DNA from: Synechococcales cyanobacterium CNB
GTDB taxonomy: Bacteria > Planctomycetota > Phycisphaerae > Phycisphaerales > UBA1924
Assembly: GCA_030263455.1 (NCBI GenBank)
Contig: SZOZ01000007.1
Coordinates: 124,001 to 188,000 of the forward strand
Direction: 5' to 3'
Length of the DNA stretch: 64,000 nt
This document shows positions 24,949 through 34,517 of the stretch, one piece after another (the stretch's first letter is position 1; the number at the start of each line of letters is the position of its first letter). Below the pieces are notes generated by a model. It had not been told where the DNA came from and did not search any database. It worked only from the letters and a program-made list of their open reading frames with translations. The translations under genes and the position numbers were made by a program.

Positions 24949-25425
24949 CTACGCCGGCGCGAGCGCGGGCCGGCCCCGGAGCGGACGCCCCAGCAACGCC
25001 GTGAACACGGCGAACGCCAGATTGCGAGCGGCGATCCCGGTCCAGTCCTCGACGTTCGAAGACGCGAGCACGCCGCATCCGCACGGCGCAGGGACGGGCG
25101 GCGGGCGGAGCGTGAGGAGGAGCGCGTAGACGCCGAAGAGGCCGAAGAGTGCGGCGAGAGCCATCGCGGCACGCGCGGGCGCTCGCCCCGCCATCAGCCA
25201 CAGGAGCGCGGCGATCGCCGCGCCGAGTTCGACACCGATCACCGCCCAGGCGGCCGGCGGCGTCAATGTGTCGGGCACAAGCCCGTGCGACGACAGGACG
25301 GAGGCGAACCCGTCCGGGTTTATGAGTTTGACGAAGCCCGTGTACAGGAAGAGGGCCGCCTCGGCGAGCAGCACGGCGACGGCGAGGCGCCGCCACGTTT
25401 CGCCCGCGAGCCGCCGCGCCGTCAT
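24949..25425 (-). CDS. MauE/DoxX-family membrane protein, module A gene 4
   Basis: 158 residues, about four membrane segments: AVAVLLAEAALFLYTGFVKLINPDGF, AWAVIGVELGAAIAALLWLM, AMALAALFGLFGVYALLL and a C-terminal helix. Between helices 3 and 4 lies APCGCGVL followed by WTGIAARN. The layout matches MauE/DoxX-type proteins, which are thought to pass electrons between thiols and the quinone pool; MauE is needed to form the disulfides of methylamine dehydrogenase. The start ATGA overlaps the stop of the preceding anchored protein, indicating translational coupling. Its paralogue is at 32253-32730. Confidence 0.75.
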   Translation of the reverse strand: MTARRLAGETWRRLAVAVLLAEAALFLYTGFVKLINPDGFASVLSSHGLVPDTLTPPAAWAVIGVELGAAIAALLWLMAGRAPARAAMALAALFGLFGVYALLLTLRPPPVPAPCGCGVLASSNVEDWTGIAARNLAFAVFTALLGRPLRGRPALAPA

Positions 25426-26393
25426 CGCCGGCGCACCCACGCGTAGATGCCGACGGCGACGAAGACCACGCCCACGCCGATGAGCGGCCAGTCGAACGAC
25501 GAGCGCCTGGGAGCCTCGGGAAATGGCGGAGCGGGACGGCGTGACGCGGCGGCGTCTTCGGAGCCGGTGTTCGCCGGTGAGACGTTCGACGTGTTGGAGG
25601 TGGAAGCGACGGACCAGCGGACCCCGTGGTCCAGCGCGCCGGCGCGCTCTGCTCGCTCGACGACCGCGCTCATGCTGAACTCATCGGCCGGGTTCGGCCC
25701 TGCGAGCCGGATGTCGGAGGGCGTCCAGCCCCAGTTCTTTCCGTACCGCCTGACGACGCCGAAGGGGAGGGTGTCGTCCTCGACGTACTCGTAGGCGTAG
25801 GTGTTTCCCGTCGCTGCAAACTCAACCGCCGTGAGGCGTCCCTCGCCGTTGATGTGGTAGACCAGCGGCTTGCGGTCGGGGACGAAGTCGCCGCCCGGGT
25901 TCCAATCGAACATCTGGCGGTTGCCGAGGGGGAATCGGAACGTGACGCTCCAGCCGCCGTCGCGGGCGCGCTCGATCTTGGTGGCGTGCTCCGCGTTTGC
26001 CTCGATGAAGCGGAGCGTGAGGTCGGGAAACGTCCGCTCGACCAGCGTGTCGTGGACTTCGCGCGGGCTGCCCTCCCAGCGCTGGACGCGCCCGTTTCGC
26101 CTCGTGTTTGCGAACATCACGCCGTTGGCATCCACTCCCCAGACACGCCCGCCCGAGGCGTGGTACCACGCGCCGGTCGCCGCGTCGTACCCGGACATGC
26201 GCACGTGGTCCGAGCCGTCCGAGTCGGCGACGAAGTGGACGGCGCCGCGCGTGGCGATCCGCTCCTTCAGCCACGAGCGCAACTCGTCCGGCGCGGCCTG
26301 AGCGAGCGCATCCCGAGTGATCGTCAGCACCATCGTCACGAGCGCGAGACGAAGCATGTTCTTCGAGTATCGGGTTGACGACACGTTGTCCAT
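25422..26393 (-). CDS. Exported C-terminally anchored protein, module A gene 3
   Basis: 323 residues, unknown family. N-terminal signal (NMLRLALVTMVLTITRDALAQA), a globular beta-rich part (AVHFVADSDGSDHVRMSGYDAATGAWYHASG, IERARDGGWSVTFRFPLGNRQ), a Ser/Thr/Pro-rich linker, and a C-terminal membrane helix ending in IYAWVRRR. The helix plus Arg tail resembles a tail anchor or sorting signal, but no PEP or LPXTG motif is seen. GGGGGAGG lies just before the ATG. The paralogue at 31246 shares the pattern GVVxA, FP, VERA-xGGW and the same type of C-terminus. Stop overlaps the start of the MauE-like gene. Confidence 0.7.
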   Translation of the reverse strand: MDNVSSTRYSKNMLRLALVTMVLTITRDALAQAAPDELRSWLKERIATRGAVHFVADSDGSDHVRMSGYDAATGAWYHASGGRVWGVDANGVMFANTRRNGRVQRWEGSPREVHDTLVERTFPDLTLRFIEANAEHATKIERARDGGWSVTFRFPLGNRQMFDWNPGGDFVPDRKPLVYHINGEGRLTAVEFAATGNTYAYEYVEDDTLPFGVVRRYGKNWGWTPSDIRLAGPNPADEFSMSAVVERAERAGALDHGVRWSVASTSNTSNVSPANTGSEDAAASRRPAPPFPEAPRRSSFDWPLIGVGVVFVAVGIYAWVRRR

Positions 26394-26422: not shown

Positions 26423-26866
26423 TCACGACTCCCCACCGCCGCTCCCGCAGGGGTTGCCGACCTCGCACCCATTGAACCCGGTTGTGTAGAACGTTGTATC
26501 CGAAGCGGAGCCATCGCGCACGATGCAGCACATGCCCCAGGGGTCTGGGCCGCACAATGTCATGCTCCATCCACTCGGCACGGGGTTGTTCGGGTCGTCA
26601 CACGGCCACGAAGCGGAGTCGCCCTCTCCGTATGTATAGCAGTAGTACGTCTTGAGACTGGCTCCAGACCCATCTTTGCCCGGGGTACCAGACTCGCATC
26701 CCCGTTCGCAGTAGATCATCTCCTCCGAACCGCAATCGTCGCACCCGAGCGGCGTCTTGGGCCTGTAGCAGGGCTGCTGCGGCTGCGAGAGCGCTGTCGC
26801 GACGATTGCAGTGAGCGCAGCGGCGAATGTGACTCGCTTCCAGATGGTTCCGATTTCGCGCTTCAT
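26423..26866 (-). CDS. 12-cysteine exported protein, module A gene 2
   Basis: 147 residues. Signal peptide (MKREIGTIWKRV, then an Ala/Val-rich core, cleavage near ALSQ). The mature part has exactly 12 cysteines (33, 42, 45, 53, 57, 76, 89, 105, 113, 114, 134, 140), enough for six disulfides, and is rich in Gly, Ser, Asp and Pro. Tail: GFNGCEVGNPCGSGGGES. No family recognised. Its counterpart at 30793 has the same length and cysteine number and shares PCDD...C...CC. AGGAG upstream of the ATG overlaps the stop codon of the prepilin-like gene, so the two are coupled. Confidence 0.72.
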   Translation of the reverse strand: MKREIGTIWKRVTFAAALTAIVATALSQPQQPCYRPKTPLGCDDCGSEEMIYCERGCESGTPGKDGSGASLKTYYCYTYGEGDSASWPCDDPNNPVPSGWSMTLCGPDPWGMCCIVRDGSASDTTFYTTGFNGCEVGNPCGSGGGES

Positions 26867-26877
26867 GGTGCTTGCTC

Positions 26878-27570
26878 CTATCGGTCGCGTCCTTCGACGC
26901 CGTACCACGTGGTCATCACGGGGAACCCGATGTTGCTGACATCGTCGTACACGAACTCGCCGCCGGGCAGAAAGTCCATCCACCGGCCGATCAGCGCGCT
27001 CCCGTCGGCCATGGCGACGGGGCCGGGCGAACTGTCCGGAAGACAGCACCAGCGCGGCGGCGAGTTGCTGCGCTTCGACCAGGTGAAGAACCAGCCGAGC
27101 ATCCCCTTGGAGGCCGGCAGGCGCGTCTGGCGGCGATACACGGGCACCGGCGACTCATCCCACACGTTCTGGTCGGGCGTATTGCCCGGCTCCATGCGGC
27201 GCGCGTCGTAGACCATGCAGAGCGAGAGTTGGAAGACGGAGGCTCGCTCCGCCGCACGGTCGTCGATCATGCCCTCCCGCTTGAGCGTCTCGTACCATTT
27301 GGCGGAGCACGCGCCGACGGTGTCGAACGCCGCGAATGGGTACAGGTCGTTGTGCTCGTTGCCGTACATCTCGACCAGGGCCGCCTGCTGCTGGATCTCG
27401 CCGAGCAGGGAGGTCAGACGCCCCTGGTGCCAGGTCTGTCGAACCGACGGCAGCAGCAGGCCGACCAGGATCGTCAGCACGCCGAGGACAACAACGAGTT
27501 CGGGGAGGGAGAAGCCGCGCCGAAAGGCAAGGCCTCGTGCACGAACCGGGCTGGTCCGGGTCGGCCGCAT
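26878..27570 (-). CDS. Prepilin-like protein, module A gene 1
   Basis: 230 residues. Basic leader then the prepilin peptidase site and methylation helix RRGFSLPELVVVLGVLTILVGLLLP (residues about 17-41, cleavage after Gly19). The C-terminal domain carries VAMADGSALIG, the DG element typical of planctomycete H-X9-DG/DUF1559-like pseudopilins, and ends GFPVMTTWYGVEGRDR. This tail aligns with GHPVVSTWLGTKGADR of the copy B protein. The ATG at 27570 lies 6 bases after a TATACT element, predicting a leaderless transcript. First gene of module A. Confidence 0.82.
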   Translation of the reverse strand: MRPTRTSPVRARGLAFRRGFSLPELVVVLGVLTILVGLLLPSVRQTWHQGRLTSLLGEIQQQAALVEMYGNEHNDLYPFAAFDTVGACSAKWYETLKREGMIDDRAAERASVFQLSLCMVYDARRMEPGNTPDQNVWDESPVPVYRRQTRLPASKGMLGWFFTWSKRSNSPPRWCCLPDSSPGPVAMADGSALIGRWMDFLPGGEFVYDDVSNIGFPVMTTWYGVEGRDR

Positions 27571-27576
27571 GGGGCC

Positions 27577-27607
27577 AGTATACCACGCGACCCCCCCCCC
27601 CCGTCAA
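27577..27607 (-). promoter_or_regulatory. Module A promoter with poly-G spacer
   Basis: Minus strand: TTGACG (27607-27602) and TATACT (27582-27577) are separated by 19 bases, most of them a homopolymer; the plus strand shows C12 at 27591-27602. A change of one or two bases in the tract would move the spacer through the 17-18 optimum. This is the arrangement of phase-variable promoters such as Neisseria porA. Transcription should begin at or beside the prepilin ATG. Confidence 0.6.
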
Positions 27608-27706
27608 CCCATCGTGACGATTTCTGGCGGTCGTCTGTTTGAGAACACTGGCGTTGAATCGGATTGTGTTAGGGTTCTGAACGCTGATGGAAAACGAAAA
27701 TCAGAC

Positions 27707-27736
27707 TTGACAAATCGCAATGAACTTCAATAATAC
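27707..27736 (+). promoter_or_regulatory. Promoter of DUF2089 gene
   Basis: TTGACA (27707-27712), 18 bases, TAATAC (27731-27736); the ATG follows after only 5 bases. It lies in an AT-rich patch (about 27605-27741) that stands out from the GC-rich surroundings and separates divergent transcription of module A and the DUF2089 gene. Confidence 0.65.
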
Positions 27737-27741
27737 GAAAA

Positions 27742-28104
27742 ATGGCTGTCGAGATTGATAAATCCGTCGAGTCACACCCCCTCTGCCGGCTGCCGCGGGA
27801 GGACCTGGACCTGGTGGCGGAGTTGGTGCTGGCGTCGGGGTCGCTGAAGGCGGTTGCTGAGGCGTACGGGGTGAGTTACCCCACGATCCGGGGGCGGGTG
27901 GACCGGGTGATCGAGCGGCTGCGGATGGTGCTCGAAGACCGCAAGCCGGACCCGGTGACGGACCTGCTGGCGGACCTGGTAGCCAGGGGGGAACTGACGG
28001 GGGCGACGGCGAGGCGGATTCGAGATGCGGTGCGCGAGGCGAGGAAGACGGGGCATGAAAGGCCCCGCCCCGAGGAACTGGGTTCCGAGGGAATGAACGG
28101 ATGA
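27742..28104 (+). CDS. DUF2089-family putative regulator
   Basis: 120 residues. The segment HPLCRLPREDLDLVAELVLASGSLKAVAEAYGVSYPTIRGRVDRVIERL matches the DUF2089 family, with a helix-turn-helix-like ending (VSYPTIRGR). The usual N-terminal zinc ribbon is absent, so this is the short form. Family function is not well established; DNA binding is inferred. Leaderless by promoter position. Followed 13 bases later by a membrane protein, probably one operon; its location between two identical modules suggests, but does not prove, a control role. Confidence 0.78.
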   Translation: MAVEIDKSVESHPLCRLPREDLDLVAELVLASGSLKAVAEAYGVSYPTIRGRVDRVIERLRMVLEDRKPDPVTDLLADLVARGELTGATARRIRDAVREARKTGHERPRPEELGSEGMNG

Positions 28105-28117
28105 GAGGAGGCGTGTG

Positions 28118-28471
28118 ATGGAACCGTGGGTGCCGCTGGACAAGGCGTGGATGCTCGGGGCGTTCATCGGCGGGGGCGGCGGCACGGCCATCGGCCTGCT
28201 CGGGGCGACGGCGGGCGTGCTGGCGCCGCGGGGCATCGGCCGACGGGCGGTGCTCGGGTCGATGCTCGCCTTCGCGTTGATCGGGCTTGGGCTGGTTGTC
28301 GCGGGCGTGGTGGGGTTGATCGTGGGCCAGCCGTTCCACGTCTGGTTCTGGCTGCTGCAGCCGGGCGTGATCTTCGCGTTTGTTACGGGGCCTCTGATCC
28401 CGGTGGTCGCGCGGCGCTACGCGCAGGCCGAGCAACGCCGGCTGGATGCGGAGGCACTGAGGCGGGGGTGA
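28118..28471 (+). CDS. Small membrane protein, unknown
   Basis: 117 residues, three predicted membrane helices (AWMLGAFIGGGGGTAIGLLGATAGVLA, VLGSMLAFALIGLGLVVAGVVGLIVG, WFWLLQPGVIFAFVTGPLIPVVA) and a basic tail RRYAQAEQRRLDAEALRRG. GAGAGGAG precedes the ATG at 28118. It follows the DUF2089 gene closely, a pairing that suggests a regulator with a membrane partner. No family is recognised. Confidence 0.65.
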   Translation: MEPWVPLDKAWMLGAFIGGGGGTAIGLLGATAGVLAPRGIGRRAVLGSMLAFALIGLGLVVAGVVGLIVGQPFHVWFWLLQPGVIFAFVTGPLIPVVARRYAQAEQRRLDAEALRRG

Positions 28472-28480
28472 GGGGTGAGA

Positions 28481-28548
28481 TACGAGCCCCGAGCGGAAGC
28501 TCGGGCGCGCGTCCTCCTTTGACCCCGTGCTTCCGCACGGGGCTCGTA
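28481..28548. repeat. REP-doublet (REPIN-like) palindromic element
   Basis: Two arms, TACGAGCCCCGAGCGGAAGC... (28481-28505) and the inverse at 28523-28548, match over 25 bases except for two compensating changes. Each arm is also a hairpin (CCCGAGC-GGAA-GCTCGGG; CCCCGTGC-TTCC-GCACGGGG). The element lies between convergent genes and can act as a bidirectional terminator. The structure, with paired REP-like palindromes in inverse orientation, is that of a REPIN. Confidence 0.65.
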
Positions 28549-28555
28549 CATGCAC

Positions 28556-29518
28556 TCAACATGAAGGCGAATCCGGCGTCACCGTGTGCTCGGGCGCTTC
28601 GCCGGTGAGCACGCGCCAGACGTCGCGCACGACCCAGGACATCTCGCGCTTGGCGTGGCGGGTTGCGCCGGCGACGTGGGGCGTCAGGCGCGCGTTCGGC
28701 AGGCCCCAGAGCGGGCACGACGAGCCGGGCGGTTCGGGGTCGAACACGTCCAGCACGGCGGCGGCACGCGGGTTGGCTCGCAGGAAGGCGGCGCACGCGA
28801 CGGCATCGACGACGAAGCCGCGGCTGGTGTTGATGAGCAGGGCGTCGGGCTTCATGCGGGCGAAGGCGGACGGGCCGAGCAGGGCGCGGTTCGAGGGGCG
28901 GGCGTCGACGTGAACACTCAGAACGTCGGCGGCGGCGAGCAGGTCGTCGAGCGGGACCGGCTCCGCGCCGTGGCGATCGGCATGGTCGATTTCGCGCAGC
29001 TCGTGGTATATGACGCGCATGTTCAACGCGGCGCCGAGCCGAGCCACCTGCGAGCCGATCCGCCCGAGACCGAGCACCCCGAGCGTGAGGCCCGCGATCT
29101 CGCGCTCGGCCTCAAGACTCTTCCGCAGCCGGTTCCACTCGTCGGGCGGGAGCGGGCGGTCGAGCGCGGCGCGCGGGCGCAGGACATCCAGCATCGCGGC
29201 GGCGACGAACTCGACGACGGCCCGCGTGTTCGCGCCGGGCGTGTTCACGACGGCGACGCCTCTCGCCGCGCACGCGGCCACGTCGATGTTGTCCACGCCG
29301 ACGCCGGCTCGTCCGACGACGCGCAGGCGCGGCGCGGCGGCGAGCATCGCATCGTCCACGCGCGTGTAGGTCCGCACGATCAGCCCCTCGGCCCGCGCAA
29401 GCAGACCGAAAAAGCCCGGACCGTCAGCGGCGCACCGCACCAGTTCGCACCGCTCGGCGAGCCACGCCGCGGGCCTCGGGTCGAGGTCCTCGGTCTGAAT
29501 GACGAGCGGGCGGGCCAT
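28556..29518 (-). CDS. D-2-hydroxyacid dehydrogenase (SerA-like)
   Basis: 320 residues. NAD-dependent D-isomer-specific dehydrogenase: N-terminal lid with GRAGVGVDNIDVAACAARGVAVVNTPG, Rossmann motif GVLGLGRIGSQVARLG, then INTSRGFVVDA, DVFDPEPPGSSCPLWGLPNARLTPHVAGAT containing the catalytic Glu/His pair. Closest in feel to 3-phosphoglycerate dehydrogenase without the regulatory ACT domain, so serine synthesis is plausible but other 2-hydroxyacids are not excluded. TAGCAT (29533-29528) lies 9 bases before the ATG. It lies between modules A and B in the opposite direction to its flanking genes. Confidence 0.85.
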   Translation of the reverse strand: MARPLVIQTEDLDPRPAAWLAERCELVRCAADGPGFFGLLARAEGLIVRTYTRVDDAMLAAAPRLRVVGRAGVGVDNIDVAACAARGVAVVNTPGANTRAVVEFVAAAMLDVLRPRAALDRPLPPDEWNRLRKSLEAEREIAGLTLGVLGLGRIGSQVARLGAALNMRVIYHELREIDHADRHGAEPVPLDDLLAAADVLSVHVDARPSNRALLGPSAFARMKPDALLINTSRGFVVDAVACAAFLRANPRAAAVLDVFDPEPPGSSCPLWGLPNARLTPHVAGATRHAKREMSWVVRDVWRVLTGEAPEHTVTPDSPSC

Positions 29519-29599
29519 CGCGGCATGATGCTACCCCGAACCCTCGGCGCACCCGGGGTGGAGCAAGGCAGGCCCCGGCTCCGGGCCGCCGCACGAACC

Positions 29600-29857
29600 A
29601 TGCTCCGACCTCAGCACCCCGCGATGCACGCGGCGGCGGACACGGCTGCGGCGGAGCGCGACCCCCGGGACTTCTCCGCCGAGGCGTGGGCGCGTCTGCG
29701 CGAGAGCCTGCCGGCCGACGACCGCCACCTTGCCGAACTGCGGATGCGCGGGCTGGACTGGGCGGCCATCGCCGAGCAACTCGGCACCAGCGAGACCGCG
29801 GCCCGCCAGCGATTCAGCCGAATCGTGCGAAGTCTGCGCGCGGAGGAGGAAGAATGA
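29600..29857 (+). CDS. Free-standing sigma-70 region 4-like protein
   Basis: 85 residues from ATG 29600 (ATG 29525 and 29624 are alternatives; no clear RBS). The C-terminal half, SLPADDRHLAELRMRGLDWAAIAEQLGTSETAARQRFSRIVRSLRAEEEE, is a sigma region 4 helix-turn-helix of the planctomycete ECF type. Region 2, which binds core polymerase and the -10 element, is missing. It is either the remnant of a sigma factor or a stand-alone regulator. It ends about 120 bases before the module B promoter. Confidence 0.55.
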   Translation: MLRPQHPAMHAAADTAAAERDPRDFSAEAWARLRESLPADDRHLAELRMRGLDWAAIAEQLGTSETAARQRFSRIVRSLRAEEEE

Positions 29858-29979
29858 GCTCGGATGGGTCGATGCCCGGGCCGAGGCCGCTCATCGCGAG
29901 CTTCACTGTCGTTTTGCTAACATCCACAAGCCTCTGTGCTGTATGCTCATGCGCACGACCGGACTCACCTCCAACTCCC

Positions 29980-30009
29980 TTGACAGGGGCGGCCGGCCCT
30001 TGGTATCCT
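29980..30009 (+). promoter_or_regulatory. Module B promoter
   Basis: A consensus-like promoter: TTGACA (29980-29985), 18 bases, TATCCT (30004-30009). By the spacing rule of other genes in the window the transcript begins near 30016, where a GTG codon stands 6 bases after the -10. Confidence 0.75.
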
Positions 30010-30046
30010 GCTGTTGTGGCGGGTATCGGTTCAGTCCAACCGGTTG

Positions 30047-30056
30047 CCCCCCCCCC
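30047..30056 (+). repeat. C10 homopolymer before module B prepilin start
   Basis: Ten C residues directly abut the ATG at 30057. A frame opening at the leaderless-position GTG 30016 runs through this tract and is out of frame with the prepilin; C8 or C11 would join the two frames. Confidence 0.6.
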
Positions 30057-30758
30057 ATGGGGGAGTGGCTTGTCGCTTCTTGCCGCAGAGGGCACTGCCG
30101 CGTTGCGTTCAGCCTGATTGAGTTGATCGTTGTTCTCGGCATTGTGATGGTGCTGATCGGTCTGCTCCTGCCGTCACTCGCCGCGGCGCGTGAGCGGTCT
30201 CGAATGACGCGACTGGCGGTCACGGCGAGAAGCAATGCCCTTGCCGTGGTCGCCTACGCGGGCGACCACGACGACGTGTATCCGATCGCATCAGCCGACG
30301 TAGGAAACGCGATGCTCGACTGGGACGATCCCCTCATCGCGGAGGGCATTCTTCCGTCCAAGGCAGCGGTCGATCCGGACGGCGTTCGCGAGCATGGCGG
30401 ACCGAAGTTCGCCCTGTCGGGCGCTCTTGTGCATCCGTCACGCTTCTTGGAACCTGGCGCCACCCTGCCGATCGACCTCGCGAAGGCCTCGCCGATCCGC
30501 CAGTCCGAGGTCGCGTATCCGTCACAGAAAGGCATGATGGTCCGCTGGCTGTTCGTGCGCGACGGAGTCCACACCTTCTGGACGTGGAATCCCTACGACC
30601 GACCGATCGCGCCCGTGGCCTGGACGGATGGGCACGTGTCCGAGCATCGATGCACGGACTTTGCCCTGGCGTACCCGTACTTCGAGAACTGGGTCGGTCA
30701 TCCGGTCGTGAGCACGTGGCTCGGGACAAAGGGCGCCGACAGACTTGCGCTCGAATGA
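30057..30758 (+). CDS. Prepilin-like protein, module B gene 1
   Basis: 233 residues from ATG 30057. Basic leader SCRRGHCRVAFSLIELIVVLG, with Ala rather than Gly at the prepilin peptidase site, and a hydrophobic helix to about residue 42. The C-terminal part has VAWTDGHVSEHRCTDFA and ends VGHPVVSTWLGTKGADRLALE, homologous to the module A prepilin. No ribosome-binding site precedes the ATG; the promoter (29980-30009) would place the 5' end near a GTG at 30016 that is currently out of frame because of C10. So the true start, and whether the gene is on, are uncertain. Confidence 0.75.
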   Translation: MGEWLVASCRRGHCRVAFSLIELIVVLGIVMVLIGLLLPSLAAARERSRMTRLAVTARSNALAVVAYAGDHDDVYPIASADVGNAMLDWDDPLIAEGILPSKAAVDPDGVREHGGPKFALSGALVHPSRFLEPGATLPIDLAKASPIRQSEVAYPSQKGMMVRWLFVRDGVHTFWTWNPYDRPIAPVAWTDGHVSEHRCTDFALAYPYFENWVGHPVVSTWLGTKGADRLALE

Positions 30759-30792
30759 ACCACGATGGAGCACACGCAAAGGAGGCATCGCC

Positions 30793-31236
30793 ATGACGAA
30801 CACACTCGCCGGACGAATCGCCGGAGCGATCGGGCTGGCTGCGGCGCTCACCGTGATCGCCGCGCCCGACTACTGCTACTTCCTCGAGCGGGTGCAGGAT
30901 GGTGAGAGTTCGGGGTGCGGCTCCGGGGCGTCCTTCTGTCTGAACAACACCATCGTCTGCGATGTCGGTCTCACGACGCGGGTCGACTACGGCTGCGGCA
31001 AGAAGGGGCCGATGTCATTCCCCGGTGTCGTCCGCAAGTGCTTCAAGATCACCAATGCGATTACGCACCCCTGCGACGATGACGATGAGCCTGCGGGCGC
31101 GGATCCGGTGGGATGCCGGACGGAATCCGGCGTATGCTGCTACGGTACCCTGACCTACGACAGTAACGTGCCCGGTGATCCGTACATGAGCGTTGCTTCC
31201 GGCGCGCGCTGCTGCAATGTCGTCGTCTCCGAGTAG
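30793..31236 (+). CDS. 12-cysteine exported protein, module B gene 2
   Basis: 147 residues, same length as the module A counterpart. Signal peptide MTNTLAGRIAGAIGLAAALTV, then a mature part with 12 cysteines (28, 42, 49, 56, 68, 83, 94, 108, 115, 116, 140, 141). Shared features with copy A: PCDD, a further Cys 14-16 residues on, a CC pair 7-8 later and a late pair of Cys. There is no tryptophan, so it is not a methylamine-dehydrogenase small subunit, which also has six disulfides and needs two Trp. AAAGGAGG 7 bases upstream is a strong ribosome site. Function unknown. Confidence 0.72.
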   Translation: MTNTLAGRIAGAIGLAAALTVIAAPDYCYFLERVQDGESSGCGSGASFCLNNTIVCDVGLTTRVDYGCGKKGPMSFPGVVRKCFKITNAITHPCDDDDEPAGADPVGCRTESGVCCYGTLTYDSNVPGDPYMSVASGARCCNVVVSE

Positions 31237-31245
31237 CGCCGCCCC

Positions 31246-32256
31246 ATGCTGACCAGTCGTCTCATGCTGGCCGGCGCCGTGTCGGGCGCCGTGACGCACG
31301 CGACACCGACGGAGTCGGCGCCGCTCGTTCAATGGCTGGAGACGCGTCCCCAGACGGTTCAACCGGCGACCGATGATCACACGCCCGAATCTCTCGCATC
31401 GGCAATCGTCAGCGGTTGGCCGGCGCAGGGTTCGATCTTCGCGCACTACACCGACGAACACGACAACGACCTTCGGGTCGCGTTCGATTTCGCATCCCGC
31501 GCTTGGAACAGCATCCGAGCCAGAGAGGTCATCGTCGCCCGGGATCCTGACGGAGTCGTCTACGCGGGCAGGATCGATGCAGGGCGCTTGCGGGAAACGT
31601 CGCCCGGCGGGGCAGACTGGGTTCTCGACCATGTCTTTCCCCAAGTGGGTGTTGTGAATGTGCTTCGAGCGCCGAACGCGAACCCTCGTGTGGAGCGCGC
31701 GAACGGTGGCGGGTGGATCGTTGTGGTGTCGCTGCCTCGCGCATCACGCTACCCGCCCGCCGAGCGACTCTCTGAGTTTGACATCCAACAGTGGGGCGGA
31801 CCCCATGGCATGTACAGGGACGTTACTTTTGTGATCCGCGATGATCTAACCGTCGCGTCAATCACTCGCCCGACGCGACCAAGTCATGCGGAACCGGGCA
31901 TGGAGACGCTCGCGTTCGACACGGCGGAGACGGGCATCCCTGGCTTCCAGGTTGTCCGCACCCACCCACCCCCCGGTAAGCGAATCCTGACCCACTTCGA
32001 GCACGACCGAGCGGGCGCTCCCGAGCGATTCACAGCCGGCGCAGTCCTCAGAGAGGCGGAGTTGCGCCGAATCGAGCATCGCCCGCGGGTGCAGGTCATG
32101 AGCGCGGACGAGGCGGACGCCAGCCCCCGATTGCGCCCTGCTCCCATACGCGACGCGAAGTCCTCGATCGAGTCACTGCGGATTGGGTTGCTCGGCGGCG
32201 GAGTACTCTTCCTCGTAGTCGGAGCCCTCGCGTGGTTCAGATTGCGACGAGCATGA
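31246..32256 (+). CDS. Exported C-terminally anchored protein, module B gene 3
   Basis: 336 residues. Signal-like N-terminus (MLTSRLMLAGAVSGAVTHA), a globular region with GSIFAHYTDEHDNDLRVAFDFASRAW, DPDGVVYAGRIDAGRL and VERANGGGWIVVVSLPRASR, which aligns with the module A protein, then RIGLLGGGVLFLVVGALAWF and the tail RLRRA. This is a membrane anchor with a short basic cytoplasmic end. It starts 9 bases after the 12-Cys gene and its TGA stop overlaps an ATG (32253) as in module A. No known family. The N-terminal start could also be the ATG at 31264. Confidence 0.7.
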   Translation: MLTSRLMLAGAVSGAVTHATPTESAPLVQWLETRPQTVQPATDDHTPESLASAIVSGWPAQGSIFAHYTDEHDNDLRVAFDFASRAWNSIRAREVIVARDPDGVVYAGRIDAGRLRETSPGGADWVLDHVFPQVGVVNVLRAPNANPRVERANGGGWIVVVSLPRASRYPPAERLSEFDIQQWGGPHGMYRDVTFVIRDDLTVASITRPTRPSHAEPGMETLAFDTAETGIPGFQVVRTHPPPGKRILTHFEHDRAGAPERFTAGAVLREAELRRIEHRPRVQVMSADEADASPRLRPAPIRDAKSSIESLRIGLLGGGVLFLVVGALAWFRLRRA

Positions 32257-32730
32257 CGCGGAGCGCCCCCCCGGCGGGAGGTCAGCGTCCGGGCAGTCGT
32301 CGTACTCCTCGGAGCCGCGTGGCTGCTCGTTGCGGGCATAAGCAAACTCTTCGGACCCGAGATCTTTGCCGATGCGCTGCACGCGCACGAAGTCGTGCCG
32401 GCGGAGTACGTTTCGTTCGTTGCGTTTGCCTTCCCGATCGCCGAGGTCGCCATCGGTCTTGGGGTGACGGGTGCCCTCGTCCTGGGAAAGTCCGTGAGGG
32501 CAAGCGCAACCACCCCGCTCGCCGTGTACAGCGTGTTCTTTGCGTATGCGCTCTGGCTTACGCAATACCCGCCGGATCAACCGGCCGCATGCGGCTGCGG
32601 ATTCTCGTCCGCGCCGGTCGATCGTTGGGGTCCGATCGCACTGCGGAATGGGGCGGCAACGGCGGTCTTGGTCGCCTGCGCGCTCCTTCCATGGAAGCAG
32701 GATCAAGTCCTTTCACGGCCGAACGCGTGA
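32253..32730 (+). CDS. MauE/DoxX-family membrane protein with out-of-frame start, module B gene 4
   Basis: The protein frame from 32257 to 32730 reads VRAVVVLLGAAWLLVAGISKLFGPEIF, later helices, QPAACGCGFSSAPVDRWGPIALRN and a last helix, clearly the paralogue of the module A MauE-like protein. But no ATG, GTG or TTG precedes the first helix in this frame. The expected start, ATGA at 32253 overlapping the stop of gene 3 exactly as in module A, is one base out of frame because of a seven-C run (32266-32272). With six Cs it would read MTRSAPRREVSVRAVVV. The alternatives are a slipped or phase-off gene, a programmed frameshift, a sequencing error, or restart at GTG 32395 giving a 111-residue form without helix 1. 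Confidence 0.65.
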
Positions 32731-33275: not shown

Positions 33276-34517
33276 TCAGGGGCAGCCGGCCGTGTAGGCG
33301 TTGAGGTAGGCGATGAAGTCGATCGTGTTGATGACGCCGTCGCCGTTGAAGTCCGCGTGGCACACCGGATTGACGGTCAGTTGCGCCACGTTGCTCTCGA
33401 CCGCGCCGCAGGTGCCCGTGACGCGTACCGAGTACTCGCCCGCGTCGCCGAGGCTCGCTGCTGGGATGAGGATCGAGGTGTTGGTCTCGCCGTCGATCTC
33501 GACGCCGTCCTTGAGCCACTGGTAGCCGATCCCCTGACCGACGGCGGTGACCGCGAATGCGGCGAAGCGCCCCTCGTCCACTGTCAGCGCGCCGGGCTGT
33601 TGCAGGATGACGGGGAACGCCAGGTTGCGCCGGAAGAGGAGGTGGTCGCTCTGCGAGCCGCCGATGTGGCCTCCGAAGAGGAGCATCTCGTTGCGTCCGG
33701 CGTCGTAGGCGACGTGGTGATCGCTGCGTGCGGACGGGCTGCTGTCGGGGTAGACCCGCGACCAGTTCTCCCCATCCCACTCCCACGTGTCGTCGTAGAG
33801 GAACGTGCTGGCGCCTCCAAAGAGCATGATCCTGCCGCGCTGCGGGTCGTAGGCGAGGGAGTGGTAGACGCGCCCGGGCGGAGCGTCGAGCGGCGCCAGG
33901 AGCGTCCACCCCTCTCCGTCCCATTCCCACGTGTCGTTCCAGTACTGCCCGCCCCCCGAACCGCCGAAGTACACCGTGCGCTGGCGAACCGGGTCGTACG
34001 CGGCGCGCCCGTCGCTGAGGTTCGGTCCACCGACGTGCTTCGTCACGTTCACGCCGTCGTAGACATAGGTCATCCCGCGTTCGACGATGAGCGTCACGGC
34101 CCGTGCCTCGTCATAGACGACGCTGATGCTGCTGGACGTGAGGAGGATGTTGTCGCCGCCGGGACTCCGCAACTGCCAGCCGTCCGGCCCGCCGTCCCAC
34201 TCCCACAGCGCGTTGTTCGGCCCCTTGCCGTAGACCAGCACCATCACGCCGCGTGCGGAGTCGTAGGCCATCGCCGGCTGGAGGTAGGATTGGGCGTCAC
34301 CGGTCCTCGTCCATGTCAGGCCGTCCCACTCCCACTGCTCCGCCATCGTCAGCAGCACGACCGTGTCGCGCTTGGGGAAGTAGGCGATCGCGCTCTCGAC
34401 GGCCCTCCACTGCGGTCCGACGCCGATCTCCCGCCACTCGTAGCACGATTGGGCGTCGGCCGCGCCCGTCGCACCGAGCGTCGCCGCCAAGACCGTGATG
34501 CCGATGAGCCGTTGCAT
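33276..34517 (-). CDS. Kelch-like, Ig-domain, GC-type dockerin secreted protein
   Basis: 413 residues. Signal peptide MQRLIGITVLAATLGATGAADAQ; about six kelch-type beta-propeller repeats (TWEWDGEGWTLL, AYDPQRGRIMLFGG, LFGGHIGGSQSDH); an immunoglobulin-like domain (ILQQPGALTVDEGRFAAF, YQWLKDGVEIDG, LGDAGEYSVRV); and the tail CHADFNGDGVINTIDFIAYLNAYTAGCP, one dockerin-type calcium loop and a terminal Cys as in the gene at 1181. The start is set by AAAGGAGACGG before the ATG. It is extracellular, presumably anchored by the C-terminal module; ligand unknown. Confidence 0.85.
   Translation of the reverse strand: MQRLIGITVLAATLGATGAADAQSCYEWREIGVGPQWRAVESAIAYFPKRDTVVLLTMAEQWEWDGLTWTRTGDAQSYLQPAMAYDSARGVMVLVYGKGPNNALWEWDGGPDGWQLRSPGGDNILLTSSSISVVYDEARAVTLIVERGMTYVYDGVNVTKHVGGPNLSDGRAAYDPVRQRTVYFGGSGGGQYWNDTWEWDGEGWTLLAPLDAPPGRVYHSLAYDPQRGRIMLFGGASTFLYDDTWEWDGENWSRVYPDSSPSARSDHHVAYDAGRNEMLLFGGHIGGSQSDHLLFRRNLAFPVILQQPGALTVDEGRFAAFAVTAVGQGIGYQWLKDGVEIDGETNTSILIPAASLGDAGEYSVRVTGTCGAVESNVAQLTVNPVCHADFNGDGVINTIDFIAYLNAYTAGCP

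Follow-up and report, generated by a model that had tools for sequence, protein, structure and literature searches.

Repeated planctomycete cassettes of MauE, a prepilin-like protein and a divergent cysteine-rich exported protein, several with candidate phase-variable promoters

Introduction

Contingency loci of the Neisseria type are known for phase-variable promoters whose spacers hold homopolymeric tracts. Here, we describe a 64,000-nucleotide stretch of the genome of Synechococcales cyanobacterium CNB, placed in the Planctomycetota by GTDB (assembly GCA_030263455.1, contig SZOZ01000007.1, positions 124,001 to 188,000; the whole stretch is called the window), which carries two copies of a four-gene cassette. 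Each copy encodes a prepilin-like protein, a cysteine-rich exported protein, a membrane-tethered protein, and a MauE-family membrane protein, and cassettes of this kind occur about 15-fold in the genome. We consider it reasonably probable that they are phase-variable export-and-fold units, the cysteine-rich proteins being their variable, surface-exposed or secreted, disulfide-rich cargo.

The likeness to Neisseria-type loci lies in poly-G/C tracts between the -35 and -10 elements at many loci per genome, with lengths that differ between orthologues. Here, however, the tracts sit in planctomycete pseudopilin/MauE cassettes, and switching is predicted from sequence. A literature search on phase variation in planctomycetes gave only passing mentions of the group. 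Verru_Chthon (TIGR02596 and partners), which we take to be a repeated cassette, likewise combines several genes with prepilin-type proteins; in contrast, the prepilins of the two window cassettes score 14.0 and 9.8 bits with TIGR02596, far under its cut-off of 70.

The MauE proteins described here score above the curated cut-off of the methylamine utilisation family (PF07291), share its C-x-C motif, and likewise have an exported, probably disulfide-rich neighbour. They differ in being multi-copy and often fused to a prepilin, and no adjacent methylamine dehydrogenase-like subunit was found in profile scans of the MauE neighbours. The biochemical role of MauE has only been speculated on (PMC7794033). 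In Streptomyces, a MauE-family gene adjoins a small predicted precursor peptide in candidate clusters for ribosomally synthesised and post-translationally modified peptides (RiPPs) (PMC7794033), whereas full-length Sec-exported proteins and a prepilin are found here and no RiPP enzymes were seen. Planctomycetales have expanded pseudopilins with N_methyl and SBP_bac_10 domains (PMC8567305). As in that case, many prepilin-like genes are scattered around the genome, frequently next to genes whose products are exported; unlike them, the prepilins here come with MauE and a cysteine-rich protein, and neither window prepilin matches SBP_bac_10 (DUF1559). Searches of the open-access literature for MauE with prepilins, or for prepilins with cysteine in Phycisphaerae, returned nothing relevant. 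The parts are of known kinds, and the failure to find their combination in that literature is weak evidence of novelty.

Two cassettes in the window

The two cassettes, named m4 and m8, each have all genes on one strand in the order prepilin-like, cysteine-rich, membrane-tethered, and MauE, and they are mutually inverted with unrelated genes between them. The tethered-protein and MauE genes overlap by ATGA in both. The genes are as follows (bit scores are given against the cut-off of the model; HMM, hidden Markov model).

24949..25425, minus strand: m4 MauE-family membrane protein with a CGCG motif (PF07291, 67.5 bits against 27)
25422..26393, minus strand: m4 tethered protein, with a signal peptide, a predicted LolA/LolB-like domain, and a C-terminal transmembrane helix with an Arg tail (structure model; homologues A2/A5)
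26423..26866, minus strand: m4 exported cysteine-rich protein, 147 amino acids, 12 cysteines
26878..27570, minus strand: m4 prepilin-like protein with the N-terminal motif RRGFSLPELVVVLGV (TIGR02532, 22.7 bits against 16.3; family HMM)
30057..30758, plus strand: m8 prepilin-like protein, 233 amino acids, with the motif CRVAFSLIELIVVLG (motif by eye; family HMM)
30793..31236, plus strand: m8 exported cysteine-rich protein, 147 amino acids, 12 cysteines
31246..32256, plus strand: m8 homologue of the LolA-like tethered protein (sequence homology)
32253..32730, plus strand: m8 MauE-family protein, its frame off by one at a C7 run at 32266-32272 (PF07291, 60.1 bits against 27)

The first-pass annotation of this DNA had singled out the two 147-residue proteins with 12 cysteines each, and we confirmed both open reading frames (ORFs), their basic/hydrophobic N-terminal signal peptides, and the position of all 12 cysteines downstream of the signal. 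They are not a chance occurrence, as a detector requiring a signal-like N-terminus, a mature part of 40-190 residues, at least 6 cysteines, and little Arg returned exactly these two ORFs and nothing else on both strands of the window. The shared cysteine pattern that had been proposed holds in part: a C-C pair and a PCDD motif are present in both proteins and align, but only some of the 12 positions correspond, with 7 cysteine columns invariant in an 11-member family alignment and the other cysteines of m4 and m8 at differing positions. Cysteines are indeed kept while the remaining residues vary, since overall identity is only about 21%. The equal length and cysteine number of the two proteins are a coincidence within a family of 6-14 cysteines. 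Twelve cysteines, or six disulfides, are not a family constant, and therefore the parallel once drawn to methylamine dehydrogenase, which has six disulfides, is accidental.

No meaningful match to the cysteine-rich proteins was found by sequence in Pfam, NCBIfam, or the PDB, and the cystine-knot or toxin identity suggested at first thus has no family match in its favour. Their fold model is of low confidence (predicted local distance difference test, pLDDT, of 56) and gave no meaningful structural match. The first-pass annotation had made no mention of the prepilin or the LolA-like protein, nor of the homopolymer promoters and the repetition, which is roughly 15-fold.

In a tree of MauE proteins, m4 and m8 fall in one clade (type A) without being sisters, as m4 clusters with m14 and the m4 orthologue, and m8 with m11. 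The two cassettes are thus old paralogues and not the product of a recent duplication. The m4 prepilin scores 20.5 bits with Pfam N_methyl, slightly below the cut-off of 21.2. In the m8 prepilin the motif is clear by eye, matches to GspG/ComG models are weak, and no model scores above its cut-off. The m8 MauE may be broken or switched off at the C7 run, or the shifted frame may be an assembly error.

Repetition in the genome and in related planctomycetes

Searching the 3.2-Mb genome by family profiles and sequence patterns revealed 17 PF07291 matches above the cut-off and one weak match. A same-strand cysteine-rich exported ORF lies within about 1.6 kb of 15 of the 17 clear MauE genes, with no stray detector matches around. 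The m1 copy has no cysteine-rich neighbour (a housekeeping copy), and m15 is degenerate, with a fragment that resembles a transposase. Prepilin relatives are present at most of the MauE loci, and in m5 and m16 MauE and the prepilin form a single reading frame. The cassette proteins of this genome have 6-12 mature cysteines.

The host belongs to a planctomycete family that includes Planctomycetota bacterium BJ19 (same genus) and Phycisphaeraceae bacterium ACE_PLA10. Nearly all genomes of this family encode MauE, in 1-18 copies; elsewhere in the phylum there are usually 0-4. We surveyed 60 loci from ten related genomes and scored 56 MauE genes, of which 39 have both a prepilin and a same-strand cysteine-rich neighbour, 6 a prepilin only, 1 a cysteine-rich neighbour only, and 10 neither (Fisher p=2e-6 for co-occurrence of the two). 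The link between MauE and the cysteine-rich proteins, raised in the first-pass annotation from the window, is therefore real and systematic (15/17 here, 40/56 in relatives). Nine of the ten MauE genes with neither neighbour, each the best-conserved copy in its genome, form with m1 a clade with one member per genome (support 100/97), which argues that one MauE is housekeeping and the rest are cassette-borne.

In-frame MauE-prepilin fusions number 24, of which 22 are in the relatives' loci and the others are m5 and m16; where the canonical prepilin motif (G/A-FTLIE) was located, it lies about 20-40 residues past the MauE domain. The C-x-C motif is retained in 72 of 73 MauE copies.

The number of cysteines is even in 42 of 48 cysteine-rich proteins (a set below 50% identity; p=5e-8), which supports disulfide pairing. 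Even yet variable numbers would also suit crosslinking, as expected if the cysteine-rich proteins, varied through their copy number, were structural parts of a planctomycete envelope crosslinked by disulfides. Cysteine-rich wall proteins with a YTV domain are known from other planctomycetes, though reported from Planctomycetales only (PMC8567305). No known family was matched among the proteins scanned here, and predicted promoter phase variation together with strong divergence (both described below) is unlike a constant structural protein. We judge this explanation very unlikely.

Among the MauE loci sampled outside the family, no prepilin cassette was found, though a few had cysteine-rich exported neighbours. 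At locus L102 of genome G285 (another planctomycete family), a MauE-containing ORF stands beside an ORF that looks C39-peptidase-like by eye, and the same strand carries a cysteine-rich exported ORF (8 cysteines) about 2.4 kb upstream of MauE. At L094 and L095 of G251 (a distant planctomycete family), MauE is near exported ORFs of 12 and 16 cysteines, with no prepilin match.

An orphan cysteine-rich exported ORF (12 cysteines) was seen at L118:4008-5693 (G000:C9, ~217.5 kb), with no MauE match nearby. It has a C11 tract before TATCAT and is followed by a 367-residue protein with a C-terminal transmembrane segment and an Arg tail. Judging from this locus, cassettes without MauE may exist too.

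Homopolymer tracts at cassette promoters

Three features were found upstream of the genes of the window cassettes.

27577..27607, minus strand: m4 promoter TTGAC-G12-TCGCGTGG-TATACT, with G12 at 27591-27602 in the spacer and the ATG 6 nucleotides past the -10
29980..30009, plus strand: m8 promoter-like string TTGACA-18-TATCCT; the window has only one other string of this kind
30047..30056, plus strand: C10 tract immediately preceding the ATG of the m8 prepilin gene

The m4 arrangement is conserved in its orthologue L037, and tract promoters akin to it are found at m6 (C15), m10 (G11), m11 (C13), and m17 (C10). Both m16 (C14) and the orphan L118 (C11) have a related form. Similar promoters, with spacer tracts of 10-24 nucleotides, occur at many loci of the family and recur in many genera. 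The promoters of m10 and its orthologue L039 are near-identical except for the tract, which is G11 in m10 and G9 in L039.

Eleven runs of at least 11 were counted genome-wide: five at MauE cassettes, one at the orphan L118, and five within ordinary genes. These last are each exactly 11 long, and all four runs of at least 12 are at cassette 5' ends. Cassette definitions preceded the tract count, and the enrichment over the cassette span is significant (Poisson p ~2e-7). Among runs of at least 10 in all DNA examined, TTGA[CT] precedes and TANNNT follows 22 of the 38 cassette tracts versus 0 of 13 elsewhere. Genome G001 has three runs of at least 12, two of them at cassettes; further long runs exist in other family genomes and were placed relative to cassettes only in part.

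Such tracts could instead be neutral by-products of G+C-rich intergenic DNA, or assembly errors, in front of constitutive cassettes. In favour of this, the genome has a high G+C content and many runs of 8-10, and metagenome assemblies leave the length of a tract uncertain. The location of every run of at least 12, the promoter-like hexamers around cassette tracts, and the recurrence in many genera make this explanation quite unlikely. Tracts between -35 and -10 are the anatomy of phase variation, and several cassettes are probably switched on and off at random.

Directly upstream of m8, a short ORF (29624-29857) resembles sigma-factor region 4 by eye; it could be a regulator or a remnant.

Tethered proteins

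An AlphaFold model of the type A tethered protein, built from 11 homologues (mean pLDDT 73), matched the LolA/LolB superfamily almost exclusively (best Z 10.6, root-mean-square deviation 4.0, 191 residues aligned). By this model, the protein would be like a membrane-tethered carrier or chaperone. No meaningful sequence match was found in Pfam, NCBIfam, or the PDB. Other cassette types encode analogous tethered proteins that fall in separate sequence groups, the largest with 23 members.

Divergence of the cysteine-rich proteins

In several orthologous cassettes of the same genus, the cysteine-rich proteins are only 48-59% identical, while most flanking genes are at about 83-97%. In m4/L037 the cysteine-rich protein is 50% and the tethered protein 47% identical, and in m14/L033 the values are 56-59% and 67%; MauE, the prepilin, and most flanks of both pairs remain at about 79-97%. 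The loci m3, m7, m10, and m16 are better conserved.

Diversifying selection, as proposed in the first-pass annotation, was not seen. Between clear orthologues, pairwise dN/dS (Nei-Gojobori, NG86) of the cysteine-rich genes is 0.07-0.36, above most flanking genes and below 1, and dS is often raised too; it is important to note that this is a weak test of positive selection on short, divergent genes. Because dN/dS is below 1 with raised dS, the data suggest fast turnover and divergence, or that alleles are replaced, with no detectable sign of positive selection.

Small, exported, disulfide-rich, hypervariable proteins could also be secreted bacteriocin-like antibacterial toxins, oxidised by MauE, with the tethered protein as cognate immunity. 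The joint divergence of the type A cysteine-rich and tethered genes between close species (m4/L037 and m14/L033) would fit, as would the MauE genes of candidate RiPP clusters (PMC7794033). Set against this are the LolA-type carrier fold predicted for the tethered protein, the several cassettes without a tethered protein, and the m2/L030 pair, in which the tethered protein is conserved (81%) and the cysteine-rich protein is not (48%). Moreover, profile scans matched no toxin, bacteriocin, or immunity family. We regard toxins as unlikely.

Proposed function of the cassettes

The reading we favour is that of phase-variable export-and-fold units. The cysteine-rich protein would be exported by Sec, and MauE, via its conserved C-x-C loop, would help to form the disulfides of this cargo in the periplasm; an Arg-rich loop connecting helices 2 and 3 indicates that the C-x-C should face that compartment. 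The product may be held or handed on by the LolA-like protein tethered to the membrane (that of type A, and perhaps of other types), and the pseudopilin of the cassette, built by a machine like that of type IV pili or type II secretion, may carry or display it at the cell surface. The genome encodes one prepilin peptidase and 12 GspF domains, in six two-domain GspF-like proteins. Slippage of the G/C homopolymer between -35 and -10 would alter promoter spacing, so that the set of cassettes expressed, out of about 15 alternatives, would differ from cell to cell. Products under phase variation are typically surface-exposed or secreted, and for this reason we prefer such a role over a structural one.

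More tentatively, we propose a surface-diversity system in which a hypervariable disulfide-rich protein is paired with a dedicated MauE thiol oxidant. The oxidant would often be made in one polypeptide with a pseudopilin, from which prepilin peptidase would separate it, and many cassettes would have a phase-variable homopolymer promoter of their own.

Several observations weigh against this picture. The m8 tract lies outside the promoter spacer and the TTGACA-18-TATCCT string of m8 has no tract; no tract of at least 10 is near m2, m3, m5, m12, m13, or m14; and metagenome assemblies may misstate the length of a tract. The five tethered-protein types are connected by weak profile matches only, so that homology to type A is weakly indicated, and the LolA fold model covers type A only; the short cassettes m5, m12, m16, m17, and m7 have no recognised tethered protein. 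Three MauE copies of the genome (m7, m11, and m8) are interrupted by a stop or a frameshift, and in G001 the orthologue of m4 (L089) has lost its MauE, cut after about 20 codons, while its visible neighbours are kept; MauE in cis would thus be dispensable or replaceable. At L089, the gene after the cut MauE looks NYN-type by eye.

If the proposal is true, free-living planctomycetes hold a contingency-locus repertoire like that of host-adapted pathogens, with phages, grazers, or neighbours as its probable targets. MauE would gain many natural candidate partner substrates, and the 24 gene fusions would link a pseudopilin directly to disulfide formation. The analysis also names several exported protein families without a database match.

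Redox background and neighbouring genes

Family searches of the genome gave no match for VKOR or DsbB, which counts in favour of the proposed function. Replacement of VKOR by MauE was considered and rejected: 49 of 61 family genomes lack VKOR, yet G037 has VKOR and 13 MauE, so that there is no simple exchange between the two.

A C-terminal motif resembling DFNGDGVxNxxDxxxYLNxxxAGC recurs in several exported proteins, encoded at 33276-34517 of the window, at L118:2833-3825, and near m1, m2, and m13. It looks dockerin-like and is possibly an anchoring or sorting signal.

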